Made by a program: the position numbers and the translations under genes | Notes under the pieces: generated by a model | Database searches by the model: none | Told to the model about the DNA's origin: nothing | Seen by the model: the letters and a program-made list of their open reading frames with translations, nothing else | From: Candidatus Kapaibacterium sp. | GTDB taxonomy: Bacteria; Bacteroidota; Ignavibacteria; Kapaibacteriales; WFXC01 | Reading direction: 5' to 3' | DNA length: 53,086 bases | Assembly: GCA_026996895.1 (NCBI GenBank) | Contig: JALWJX010000044.1 | Location: 6,615-59,700 of the forward strand | Shown: in pieces, positions 27,130 through 32,281 of the stretch | Numbering within the stretch: position 1 is the first letter of the stretch | How the letters are laid out: each line of letters begins with the position of its first letter

Positions 27130-27305
27130 TCAGCAATTCAATGTGCAGTTCAACAGGAGTGCACACTCTCAGTACTTATTGCCCCTGGTAGGACAATCCT
27201 TCGAGTTATCCAGAGAAAGCCAGCGGCTTGTTCTGCTCTATTTTTGCCGGCGCAAGCCAGTGCTTTCCAGCGTCGACGCTTGCAACGTTAGTGTTCCCAA
27301 CGACC
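27130..27305. other. Intergenic DNA before the repeat cluster, nothing recognised
   Basis: No gene or clear signal is seen here. Together with the hairpin repeats that follow (27306-27500) it forms the 399-nt gap between two converging genes. Confidence 0.4.
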
Positions 27306-27500
27306 GGGAGCGCACGCTTCAGCGTGCATTTACTGGGAGCGCACGCTCTTAGGGCACATCTACCGGGAGCGCACCCTTTAGGGTGCATTTTTAATTCTTT
27401 GCCGACTGAAGTCGGCGCTCCCGGTTTGCTGGAAGCACATGCTCCTAGGCGTGTATTTCTTGCCGACGAAATCTGGCACTTCCAGCCAGCGCTCCTGGTT
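27306..27500. repeat. Cluster of hairpin-forming GGGAGCGC repeats
   Basis: Three imperfect copies of about 29-30 bp begin with GGGAGCGCAC at 27306, 27335 and 27365. Two contain perfect 7-bp hairpins with different bases, GCACGCT/AGCGTGC and GCACCCT/AGGGTGC, so pairing is kept while sequence changes. A further hairpin GCCGACT/AGTCGGC (27401-27416) and an inverted GGCGCTCCC (27413-27421) follow, then decayed copies to about 27500. The block resembles dispersed intergenic palindromic repeats known in several phyla. It lies between converging genes and could also aid termination. Confidence 0.7.
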
Positions 27501-27528: not shown

Positions 27529-29889
27529 CTACCGTACCACCGGAACCACCACTATGTGTTGCACACCGTTCTGCAACTGGACGACAAGGTAGTAGTCTCC
27601 TGCCGCTAATTCCCGTATATCCACACTCTCGACTGCTCCCCGATACTGCCTGACAAGCTGCCCATCTGCCGTGTACAGTGACACCGAGGCAACCATCCCG
27701 CGAATCTGCGTGCTGTACTGCAAAAACAGTTTTTCGGCTGCCGGCACTGGATAAGCGGTGATGCCATCATCCCGAACTGCCTGCTGCGCTTCCTCCACCC
27801 CGGTTGTCCCGAAATGGATGAGCAGAAGCTGATGGGGAACGACATTAAATTCTACGAGAAGGTTACCACCTCGCCATACGATGGCACAATGACCATTATA
27901 GTCTAATACAAACCGCGCTTCCCCGGGTTGTGGCAATTCCAGAGCCCGCCATTGTCCATTCCGTAAGTAGACTAGCCGTCCCGAAGAATATGACTCATCG
28001 GTAAGACTGATTATCTTGTTCCTAAAATCCTTAGCCGCAAAGCCAATTAATGGGGTACTTCGAGCTCCTGGGAACCAATAGGTCTGCCACCACTCCTGCT
28101 TCCAACTATTGCCCCCATCGCTACTGGAAAGCAGCACAACATCCCAGAATGGTCCATCCGTAACCAACATTCCCACAACAATGTCTATATGCTGCTCATC
28201 ATAAAATTTCACTGCTTCAATATTCAACAACCGCGTCGGGCGTTCTGCGTAATGCTTCATAGCATCTGCCAGCGAATATTTTTCCCACGTATGACCACCA
28301 TCGCTGGTTTTCCAAAATTCTTTCTCATCCTCCCGCTCAATAACAGCATAGCCACGGTTATCTCCAAAAAAGTGAACGGCAACTATTCTTCCTTCACCTC
28401 TTTTGAGCCGAAAGAGTTTCTGCCACGGTTGTCCCACCTGCGCTGCCACTACGCACGCGTACTCATTGCTACTTTTACCTGAATCTATCACTGGTCCAAC
28501 TATCGCAAATCCTTCATCCCCATAGGGCATAACATTCCTTATCCGGAGTGAATCAAAGTGCACTACATCCCACGTCTTCCCTTCATCAGAGGACCACCAA
28601 CCATTTTCATAGGATGTGAGCACAAACACTGACTGCCCGTTCCACACCCATCGAGTCGGGCGCTCTCCATAGTACTTGAACTGCGCATACACCGTATCCC
28701 GCCACACATCAATGACCGGCAATAGCGACACGGTATCCCACACTCCCGCGCTGCTCCGATGCCGCACCACCTGCGGCGCTGATGGATAACCGATGAGCGC
28801 CAGAAACTCATCGCATTCCTCAAGCTTTGCTCCAGCAACGGTCGACAGTGGCACAATTCGATCCCACACTCGCCGTTGCCATTCTTTCCCACCTTCAACT
28901 GGCTCTACCCCAACTATCGTGTACTGCTGCCGTTCTCCGTACACTATGCGTTGTCCTCCAATACGGAGCATTCCCCACCATCGGATGGGATACTCCAACC
29001 ACCATTTCCCCGAAACTGTATCAATCCGAAATTTCACTTTCCGCCACGTTGCTCCACCATCGGTCGTCTCCCACACTGGCTGCCATAATGCCGATGATCC
29101 TTCCCCTACTATCCACCCGTACTGCCCATTCCAGAAATCAATATTCCGCAATTTATCCGCATCCGACCCCGGTGGTTCTAATGCTCTCATATTCCAGCTA
29201 TTTCCTCCATCAGTCGACCATACCATTTGCATCTTCTCTCCGACTGCATACCACTGGTCAGCACCGGCTGTCGCAATACCGTACAGCGTGCGCTTCAAAG
29301 GTAGTTCTTTCACAACCTCCCACTCATACCCTCCATCCGTTGATCGCACGATCACGCCATCTTCACCGACCGCCATCGCCACATCCCCCTGCCACGCTAC
29401 CGACCACAAGTCCTTCGCTGTCCCACTTGCCCGCCGCTGCCACGTCCACCCCTGATCACTCGATCGCACAATTTCTCCCTCTTCCCCAACGGCAATCAAT
29501 ACCCCCTTCCCATTTTTCCTCACCCGATATAACGTCCTTTCCGTCGGCATCCCAATCGTTTCCCAGCTCTTTCCCCCATCTCCACTCCGATAGCACAACC
29601 CTCTTTCGCCAACAACCACCCACACATCCGGCGTCACCTGTGCGATCGAATAAATCGTCCGATCCTCTCCTTCGGCGATGCGCTGCCGCTGCCAGGTCTG
29701 AAATCCATCCCGACTCCGCAGTATCATCCCCTCCCCTCCAACCAACACCACTTCGCCATCCACCACGATCCCGTCACACATCTTACTCCCATCCGGATAC
29801 AATGGCGCAACGGTGATCGGCTCAAACCGCACCTGGGCAGCAGCACCTGCCACAATAACAACTGCCAGCAGCGTCACCGCCTGCTTCAT
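27529..29889 (-). CDS. Secreted beta-propeller (BNR/Ycf48-like) protein with T9SS sorting domain
   Basis: A 786-residue exported protein. A signal peptide (about 1-19, ending GAAAQ) is followed by at least nine BNR-type repeats of the form S-x-D-G-G-x-S/T-W (for example RSGDGGKSW, RSTDGGYEW, ETTDGGATW, KTSDGGHTW, SSSDGGNSW), which build propellers like Ycf48/HCF136 or sialidase-like folds. The last ~80 residues (AYPVPAAEKLFLQY, then ASVSLYTADGQLV and DIRELAAGDYYLVVQL) are a T9SS type-A sorting domain, so the protein should be exported across the outer membrane and anchored or released. No catalytic site was identified. The ATG at 29889 follows GGGAAGAAAG. The gene is alone in its transcription unit. 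Confidence 0.9.
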   Translation of the reverse strand: MKQAVTLLAVVIVAGAAAQVRFEPITVAPLYPDGSKMCDGIVVDGEVVLVGGEGMILRSRDGFQTWQRQRIAEGEDRTIYSIAQVTPDVWVVVGERGLCYRSGDGGKSWETIGMPTERTLYRVRKNGKGVLIAVGEEGEIVRSSDQGWTWQRRASGTAKDLWSVAWQGDVAMAVGEDGVIVRSTDGGYEWEVVKELPLKRTLYGIATAGADQWYAVGEKMQMVWSTDGGNSWNMRALEPPGSDADKLRNIDFWNGQYGWIVGEGSSALWQPVWETTDGGATWRKVKFRIDTVSGKWWLEYPIRWWGMLRIGGQRIVYGERQQYTIVGVEPVEGGKEWQRRVWDRIVPLSTVAGAKLEECDEFLALIGYPSAPQVVRHRSSAGVWDTVSLLPVIDVWRDTVYAQFKYYGERPTRWVWNGQSVFVLTSYENGWWSSDEGKTWDVVHFDSLRIRNVMPYGDEGFAIVGPVIDSGKSSNEYACVVAAQVGQPWQKLFRLKRGEGRIVAVHFFGDNRGYAVIEREDEKEFWKTSDGGHTWEKYSLADAMKHYAERPTRLLNIEAVKFYDEQHIDIVVGMLVTDGPFWDVVLLSSSDGGNSWKQEWWQTYWFPGARSTPLIGFAAKDFRNKIISLTDESYSSGRLVYLRNGQWRALELPQPGEARFVLDYNGHCAIVWRGGNLLVEFNVVPHQLLLIHFGTTGVEEAQQAVRDDGITAYPVPAAEKLFLQYSTQIRGMVASVSLYTADGQLVRQYRGAVESVDIRELAAGDYYLVVQLQNGVQHIVVVPVVR

Positions 29890-30132: not shown

Positions 30133-30160
30133 GTAGGGGCACGGTATACCGTGCCCCTAC
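30133..30160. repeat. 28-bp perfect palindrome
   Basis: From GTAGGGGCACGG through the centre GGTATACC to CCGTGCCCCTAC every base pairs, giving a 28-bp perfect palindrome. GC-rich palindromes of the form TAGGGGCACGG are, from memory, dispersed in genomes of several phyla. It sits in the 450-nt gap between the T9SS gene and the cysteine-rich gene. Confidence 0.7.
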
Positions 30161-30339: not shown

Positions 30340-30951
30340 TCAATCACACATTGCTGGAATGCACTCTCTTCCCGGCTCATCCTGACAACGGTCTAATGTC
30401 AATGGCTGGCTCCAATGAGATACTACTTCCACTCCTCCGGTGGCATCGATGCACAAAATGTAAACCTCTTCACAACAATTGCCAAATTTGCACCAGACTA
30501 TTGGACGGTTTACCACTTCTATAGAGTTCAGATCCACACAAGCTCTCCAATAAATACGAAAAGTTGTAGCAGAAATGTTAGGTATTCCCTCTGGATTGCA
30601 GTTCACATTTACCCCCTGAGCAGCCATTTGATATAGCTCCCCAACAGAGATTTTGTAAAACAATTCCCGCATAAACTGTTCCCAATGCCCTATCGTATCT
30701 TGTAGCCATTGCTGAAAGGACTGACAATCAGGATCGCTGGTATTGAAATAATATGCATTTATCCAGACTTTTCTCGATCCATCTGGGCATTCAGTAATAT
30801 CATATTCCACCCGCACGTGACACCCCGGGCAACAACTTGGTACCACCCATAAGGTTTTGGAAGTCGTAGGGCCATCACACCCCTCACACGGATCCTGGGC
30901 AAAACTACTGAGCGGGAACAAAGCGGAAGTGAAAAGGAGTAGAAATGTCAC
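30340..30951 (-). CDS. Cysteine-rich secreted protein, out of frame with its likely start
   Basis: The 203-residue frame shown starts at a GTG (30951) with no Shine-Dalgarno; no family is recognised. It begins with a hydrophobic stretch ending SSFAQDP, then has 16 cysteines in a body of about 185 residues (DPCEGC, SCCPGC, WCKFGNCC and others), suggesting disulfide bonds or metal binding. The true start is more likely the ATG at 31045, which has GGGAGAGG and a GTTTCACAA leader. That ATG and the body differ by +1 frame because of a decanucleotide array between them; with one array unit less they are in frame. The copy here is therefore read as OFF. Confidence 0.75.
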   Translation of the reverse strand: MTFLLLFTSALFPLSSFAQDPCEGCDGPTTSKTLWVVPSCCPGCHVRVEYDITECPDGSRKVWINAYYFNTSDPDCQSFQQWLQDTIGHWEQFMRELFYKISVGELYQMAAQGVNVNCNPEGIPNISATTFRIYWRACVDLNSIEVVNRPIVWCKFGNCCEEVYILCIDATGGVEVVSHWSQPLTLDRCQDEPGRECIPAMCD

Positions 30952-30965
30952 TACGGCAGGAATGA

Positions 30966-31007
30966 GAAAGACTCCGAAAGACTCCGAAAGACTCCGAAAG
31001 ACTCCGA
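30966..31007 (-). repeat. Decanucleotide tandem repeat (CTTTCGGAGT, 4.2 copies)
   Basis: The minus strand carries the 10-bp unit CTTTCGGAGT, three perfect central units plus partial units on both sides, 42 bp in all. It lies between the Shine-Dalgarno-preceded ATG (31045) and the body of the cysteine-rich gene. Since 10 is not a multiple of three, each gain or loss of a unit shifts the frame. Confidence 0.88.
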
Positions 31008-31039
31008 GGACTACAGATTTGAACGCAGGCGGAACGCGT

Positions 31040-31058
31040 CATCATCGCAACCTCTCCC
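31040..31058 (-). promoter_or_regulatory. Ribosome-binding site and ATG of the cysteine-rich gene
   Basis: On the minus strand GGGAGAGG is followed after 6 nt by ATGATG (31045-31040). No other translated frame of note follows it: in the present sequence it opens a 46-codon frame that stops at about 30905. With loss of one decamer it would continue into the secreted protein with a longer signal peptide containing two Arg near its start. Confidence 0.7.
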
Positions 31059-31060
31059 TG

Positions 31061-31070
31061 ATTGTGAAAC
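31061..31070 (-). promoter_or_regulatory. GTTTCACAAT leader element before the cysteine-rich gene
   Basis: Reads GTTTCACAAT on the minus strand, 16 nt before the ATG at 31045. The predicted transcription start lies about 35 nt further upstream, so the element is within the leader RNA. Confidence 0.5.
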
Positions 31071-31109: not shown

Positions 31110-31140
31110 CAAATTTAAAAAGTCTTCCGGAAAAATGCAA
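31110..31140 (-). promoter_or_regulatory. Predicted promoter of the cysteine-rich gene (TTG-N20-TAAATTTG)
   Basis: On the minus strand TTG (31138-31140) is followed after 20 bases by TAAATTTG (31110-31117), then C: a perfect Bacteroidota promoter. Confidence 0.75.
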
Positions 31141-31153
31141 GCGCTGCGCAGTA

Positions 31154-31396: not shown

Positions 31397-32281
31397 TCAC
31401 ACCTGCTCGGCTGCGTGGTAGGAACTGCGAACCAATGGTCCGGACTCCACATACTGGAATCCCATCTCCAGTCCAACGGTGCGATACCACTGAAATTCCT
31501 CTGGCGATACGTACCGATCGATCGGCAGGTGATTCTTTGTCGGCTGTAGATACTGTCCCAACGTTAGAATATCAACGCCGATGTCCCGCAGATCCTGCAT
31601 CACGTCCAGTACTTCTTGCGGCGTCTCACCCAGTCCCAGCATCAAACCGGTTTTCGTCCGCAGTCCCTGCCGCTTGCTCTCTTCCAGAACAAACAAACTC
31701 CAGTGATAGCGCGCCTGCGGACGCACCATTTTGTACAGCCGAGGGACAGTTTCAATGTTATGGTTCAAAATATCGGGTCGAGCATCGATAACGATCTGAA
31801 GCGAGGATTTTTTTCCTTGAAAGTCCGGGATGAGCACTTCCACCGTAACGCCGGGATTCAGCCGCCGAATTTCCTGAATGGTCTGCGCAAACATTGTTGC
31901 GCCCCCATCCGGCAACTCATCGCGATTGACAGACGTCACCACAGCGTGCCGAACTCCCATTGCCTGCACTGCTTCGGCGACGTGGCGCGGCTCCTGCGGA
32001 TCCAGCTCCAGCGGCTTCCCCGTTTTGATTGCACAGAAACCGCAGGAGCGTGTGCAGGTATCTCCCAGAATCATAAACGTCGCGGTCCCTGCGTTCCAGC
32101 ACTCGGCGATATTCGGACACAAGGCTTCCTCACAGACCGTGTGCAGCCGCTTGGACCGCATCATTTCGTAAAGCCAGGAATACGTTTCGCCACCGGGGGC
32201 ACGCACTTTCAACCACGGAGGACGGCGCACGGTGGATGAAGGCGTGATAACCGGCAATTCAATGGCGGCAAGATCTGACAT
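31397..32281 (-). CDS. lipA: Lipoyl synthase
   Basis: A radical-SAM enzyme that inserts two sulfurs into octanoyl-protein to make the lipoyl cofactor of pyruvate and 2-oxoglutarate dehydrogenases. The 294-residue protein has both iron-sulfur motifs: the auxiliary cluster set [12 protein letters not shown] (50-61) and the radical-SAM C-x3-C-x2-C in CTRSCGFC (76-83). The C-terminal RSSYHA carries the serine that ligates the auxiliary cluster. It begins 3 nt after the sigma gene and is probably read with it. Confidence 0.97.

Follow-up and report, generated by a model that had tools for sequence, protein, structure and literature searches.

Does a 10-bp tandem array that separates a well-formed start region from the body of a putative secreted protein act as a switch for that protein? 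The question is raised by a locus in the window, by which we mean the whole stretch of 53,086 nucleotides of Candidatus Kapaibacterium sp. that was analysed; the source genome, G000, is a 2.7-Mb draft in 138 contigs. We consider it very probable that the array is a translational phase switch operating by slipped-strand mispairing at the signal peptide, and that it belongs to a genus-wide set of such switches.

On the minus strand, TRF (period 10) delimited a pure array with 100% matches that separates the ATG at 31045 from the body of a protein with 16 cysteines (Table 1). Towards the start codon, the array adjoins a degenerate copy of the unit, 9 nt long (CCTCGGAGT), a detail that refines an earlier sequence-only reading of the locus. 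The ATG (31045-31043) is directly trailed by a second ATG in the same frame and lies 94 nt from the GTG at 30951 in the body frame. Division by three leaves a remainder of 1, placing the start out of frame by +1, and one unit fewer or two more would bring the remainder to 0. As read from its sequence, the present allele is OFF. The earlier reading had claimed the position and copy number of the array, the 94-nt offset, and the restoration of the frame by the loss of one unit or the gain of two; TRF and the frame arithmetic bore out all three. The leader and promoter that it had described as part of a well-formed start were located upstream of the ATG, and the cTTG/TAAATTTG pair is presumably a promoter of the Bacteroidota type. 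A variant form of the -7 element is retained at most related loci. The signal peptide is probably cleaved before QDPC, and several of the few ortholog differences in its core are silent.

Table 1. Features of the window locus (first ten rows, window coordinates) and loci of the related repeat-bearing families.
Feature	Position	Strand	Basis or remark
cTTG, -33 element of Bacteroidota-type promoter (presumed)	31138..31141	-	Sequence; 20 nt before TAAATTTG
TAAATTTG, -7 element (TAnnTTTG; presumed)	31110..31117	-	Sequence; same or similar octamer before the ATG at loci B, C, D and in the GT family
GTTTCACAA, leader motif	31062..31070	-	Retained in orthologs; a variant precedes other repeat-bearing genes in the genus
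GGGAGAGG, Shine-Dalgarno-like	31051..31058	-	Sequence; identical in 3/3 orthologs
ORF from ATG ATG as now (OFF), 46 codons, then TAG	30905..31045	-	Translation
Tandem array, unit GGAGTCTTTC (10 bp), 4.2 copies	30966..31007	-	TRF; 3.2 copies in G002, about 1 in G001
Signal-peptide core in body frame, LIPAVVTFLLLFTSALFPLSSFA	30898..30966	-	Translation and hydropathy
GTG, sole start codon now in frame with the body	30949..30951	-	Without Shine-Dalgarno; paralogs without start codon at the same place
Body of secreted protein and stop, 184 aa from DPC, 16 Cys	30340..30897	-	Alignment with four relatives; 16 Cys in every intact member
Downstream YCF48/BNR beta-propeller gene, weak type IX sorting domain	27529..29889	-	Domain matches; same gene type after the body at related loci
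Family II, 16-bp array GGGGCATGCTGCATTT	G000:C25, C53, C117; G002:C109; G001:C8, C18, C31, C33
Family III, 13-mer GCGGCAAGGCTGT	G000:C103, L120 4785-4878		7.2 copies
Family III, 13-mer GCGGCAAGGCTGT	G001:C17, L119 5145-5251		8.2 copies
Family III, 13-mer GCGGCAAGGCTGT	G001:C34, L121		About 2 copies
GT family, source genome	G000:C7, C27, C47, C71, C115, C131, C132		Among L166-L218
GT family, G001	C1, C2, C5, C11, C20, C27, C32, C35, C45		Among L166-L218
GT family, G002	C50, C90, C159		Among L166-L218

Replication slippage within the array would alter its length by whole units and, since 10 is not divisible by 3, every such change would shift the frame of the ATG at 31045 relative to the signal core and the body. 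Of the three length classes, a single one (reached from the present allele by losing one unit or gaining two) would give MMTRSACVQICSPRSLSESFGVF-LIPAVVTFLLLFTSALFPLSSFA-QDPC... and lead to export of the 16-cysteine protein; in the other two classes, translation would stop after a few dozen codons. Switching of this kind should be reversible and, with the locus belonging to a wider set of signal-peptide switches in the genus, the cells of a mixed population would differ in the proteins that they secrete. Four units make a short array, so switching may be slow. The arrangement matches SSR-mediated translational phase variation in two respects: a pure repeat whose unit is not a multiple of three lies in the 5' coding region, likewise at the paralogous loci B, C and D and at the GT loci described below, and the number of units sets whether start and body share a frame.

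We compared the locus with two other genomes of the genus, G001 and G002, both metagenome-assembled sister species, so that the comparison is between species with one draft genome each. The flanks of the locus align well across all three. The ortholog at G002:C16 is shorter by exactly 10 bp, which puts its ATG in frame with the signal peptide (MMTRSACVQTCSPRSLSESFGVFLIPAVVTFLLLFASALFPLSSFAQD), while that of G001 is about 29 bp shorter and out of frame. The body is deleted in both sister species, with an identical breakpoint immediately behind the signal peptide (L007/L011 and L008/L016). The array and signal peptide persist, and the stop codon of their frame overlaps the propeller gene's start codon (ATGA). 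All that the in-frame G002 allele encodes is the signal peptide with a few further residues, so that the window gene has no known full-length copy in frame. The sequence-only reading had proposed looking for other unit numbers in close relatives and had named a single fixed length in all reads and strains, with the gene out of frame and decaying, as a case against it. Three species gave three lengths, among them an in-frame 3-unit allele, but the gene that the allele should switch on has lost its body in both relatives. The propeller gene that follows the orthologous locus in G001:C4 (L016, L019) matches as two overlapping pieces, which suggests that it is frameshifted.

The persistence of the array without the body raises the possibility that its main target is the downstream YCF48 gene, reached through translational coupling or polarity, and not the cysteine-rich protein. 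In the window, the cysteine-rich gene is flanked by this propeller gene and by ORF 31397-32281, which we take to be a lipoyl-synthase-like gene. The propeller protein has a weak type IX sorting domain that scores below the curated cut-off, and a search of the cysteine-rich protein for the Por_Secre_tail domain of type IX substrates gave no match. The downstream gene and its relatives resemble the YCF48/BNR-repeat secreted proteins of Bacteroidota (PF14870, PF18962) but are not what is switched at the window locus. Besides the ATGA overlap in the sister species, an action on the propeller gene would agree with the layout of two other groups of cysteine-rich genes, families II and III, whose array lies in a leader ORF and not in the coding sequence itself. 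Against it, 450 nt separate the two genes in the window, an array inside a signal peptide is best explained by the protein that it encodes, and the GT family has the same layout. We regard a main effect on the YCF48 gene as unlikely; it would be compatible with a switch of the cysteine-rich protein.

The leader arrays of families II and III end before the coding sequence in all phases, and their lengths also vary. Family II has 3 to 8 copies of its 16-mer; a leader ORF containing the array was seen upstream of the cysteine-rich gene at C25, C53, C117, C109 and C8, with a propeller gene next at C25 and C53. The family II gene at C25 is frameshifted. A frame switch of the gene itself was considered for both families and ruled out by the position of the array.

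The remaining members of the family of the window protein place an array at the same position, but each group has its own, unrelated sequence with a unit not divisible by three. G000:C83 carries TCCAT x16 and is in frame (MKKFFSLHSIPFHSIPF...), and its near-identical ortholog G001:C43 carries TCCAT x8 and is out of frame. The 13-mer CGCAGCAGTTTTC occurs 7.1 times at G000:C3 and 4.1 times at G001:C20, and the 10-mer AGCATTTCCA occurs 5.1 times at G002:C170, all three out of frame. Length differs between species (4.2/3.2/about 1 at the window locus, 16/8 and 7.1/4.1), a third respect in which the arrangement matches SSR-mediated phase variation. The slipped-strand interpretation of the earlier reading gains support both from these differences in repeat, copy number and phase and from the in-frame G002 allele. 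All four paralog groups have 16 cysteines. Gain and loss of the family are rapid: the gene is absent from locus D in G000:C45, and something else occupies its place at locus B in G002:C98.

A rival view is that the locus is a relic: the window gene would be permanently OFF and in decay, and its array a neutral remnant of a former switch. The gene is out of frame now, both sister species lack its body, and the related gene at G001:C20 has an internal deletion. The window body is nevertheless intact, with 184 codons and every cysteine in place, and array length still differs between species. Moreover, the bodies of the C83/C43 pair, which are in opposite phases, gave a dN/dS of 0.14, indicating purifying selection on the body although one copy is OFF. 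A relic is therefore very unlikely, and a working switch remains our preferred account.

That account would also fail if the protein were made constitutively from the GTG at 30951, with the array irrelevant. This codon is in frame, yields a hydrophobic signal core and is retained in orthologs. The stretch of body frame that runs from two stops near the ATG at 31045 down to the GTG holds no ATG, GTG or TTG. The GTG lacks, however, both a Shine-Dalgarno sequence and a positive n-region. The hydrophobic core (LIPAVV-TFLLLFTSALF) begins before it, an argument for translation normally starting further upstream. At the place of the GTG, paralogs B, C and D offer no usable start codon, and all paralogs have an upstream ATG preceded by a promoter-like element. 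Constitutive translation from the GTG is thus most unlikely.

A pattern search for (GT)10 uncovered a second secreted family, unrelated to the cysteine-rich one, in which (GT)7-16 lies in the signal peptide, between MTKAKTFSANR and the signal core YTLLFAMTLPALAQ. It had no Pfam match and is restricted to the genus among 61 genomes. Three of its 18 phased loci are in frame, although locus counts are approximate, as several lie at contig ends and a few may be fragments of one locus (e.g. C7 and C132). In addition, G000:C64 has (AC)11 in frame before another cysteine-rich body. Across all phased alleles, 6/27 are in frame and all three phases are present; the ON fraction cannot be distinguished from one third (p = 0.31), as expected if lengths drift freely by single units. 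Repeats are a known weak point of metagenome assemblies, so the true window array might differ in length and leave the gene in frame. This is hardly credible given that the 42-bp array is shorter than common short reads, that three separate assemblies show three lengths, and that the 27 alleles, at many loci, are spread over all three phases.

Within 832 kb of G000, such arrays almost always sit at the 5' end of a gene for a secreted protein, and the only two others, a TTC tract and a 12-mer, are both multiples of a triplet. Two contigs, G000:C6 and G000:C17, read as N throughout. This sample consists of partly overlapping stretches and includes contigs picked for holding family members, so that the enrichment is descriptive and not a test. 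A first-order Markov sequence of 2.5 Mb contained no array of the window kind.

The cysteine-rich family was detected only in the genus (3/61 relatives). For the body, 395 genomes of the phylum gave no homolog outside the genus except one weak partial match of 41 residues. Viral contigs contained neither body homologs nor the exact leader sequence. The protein had no match in Pfam or NCBIfam, and sequence searches of the body against PHROGs, PADLOC and the PDB returned nothing significant. A fold search was equally negative, a weak negative given the moderate AlphaFold model (pLDDT 68, 3 sequences).

Repeat-driven phase variation is best known in host-adapted pathogens, where it is explained by immune evasion. 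In an uncultured Kapaibacterium, a large set of switches may call for a different explanation, such as phages, predators or surface competition. By analogy, the window locus would work like the opa and oipA genes, without detected relation to either. The opa genes of Neisseria carry CTCTT pentamers in the leader-peptide region (PMC3960869). Both systems have several paralogs with a repeat in the sequence coding for the signal peptide and a unit that is not a multiple of three, and one Kapaibacterium locus group likewise uses a pentamer (TCCAT). The opa genes share one unit, whereas each Kapaibacterium paralog group has its own (5, 10, 10 and 13 bp); the Kapaibacterium switch is a predicted one, of a putative secreted protein rather than a known outer-membrane protein. 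Pfam, NCBIfam and the PDB revealed no relation of the cysteine-rich protein to the Opa family. The oipA gene of Helicobacter pylori has a CT dinucleotide repeat in its 5' region (PMC10564699). It parallels the (GT)n family in that a dinucleotide array close to the start shifts the frame, but it encodes another type of protein, and the Kapaibacterium repeat contributes part of the signal core (VCVC...) at no fewer than 18 related loci.

The basic mechanism is already known; new here are the organism and the protein families, together with how many loci are involved and how repeat units replace one another at a single site. Among the papers searched, none names both Kapabacteria and phase variation. 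Different repeats that have arisen repeatedly at one paralog site amount to a natural experiment on switch evolution. More tentatively, the genus may possess a stochastic secretome, with about 14 repeat-bearing secreted loci in one genome and the signal peptide as the standard switch site, at which unrelated repeats of 2, 5, 10 and 13 bp would have arisen repeatedly. A second class, families II and III with their 13- or 16-bp leader-ORF arrays, might control its genes by an undescribed mechanism. We hold this wider picture as possible but doubtful.

Two minor features lie on either side of the propeller gene. A perfect palindrome, GTAGGGGCACGGTATACCGTGCCCCTAC, occupies 30133-30160, between it and the body of the cysteine-rich protein, and an imperfect 30-bp repeat of 2.8 copies, ACCGGGAGCGCACGCTTTAGGGCACATCT, occupies 27303-27383; GC-rich pieces resembling the latter precede several genes with repeats at other loci of the genus.
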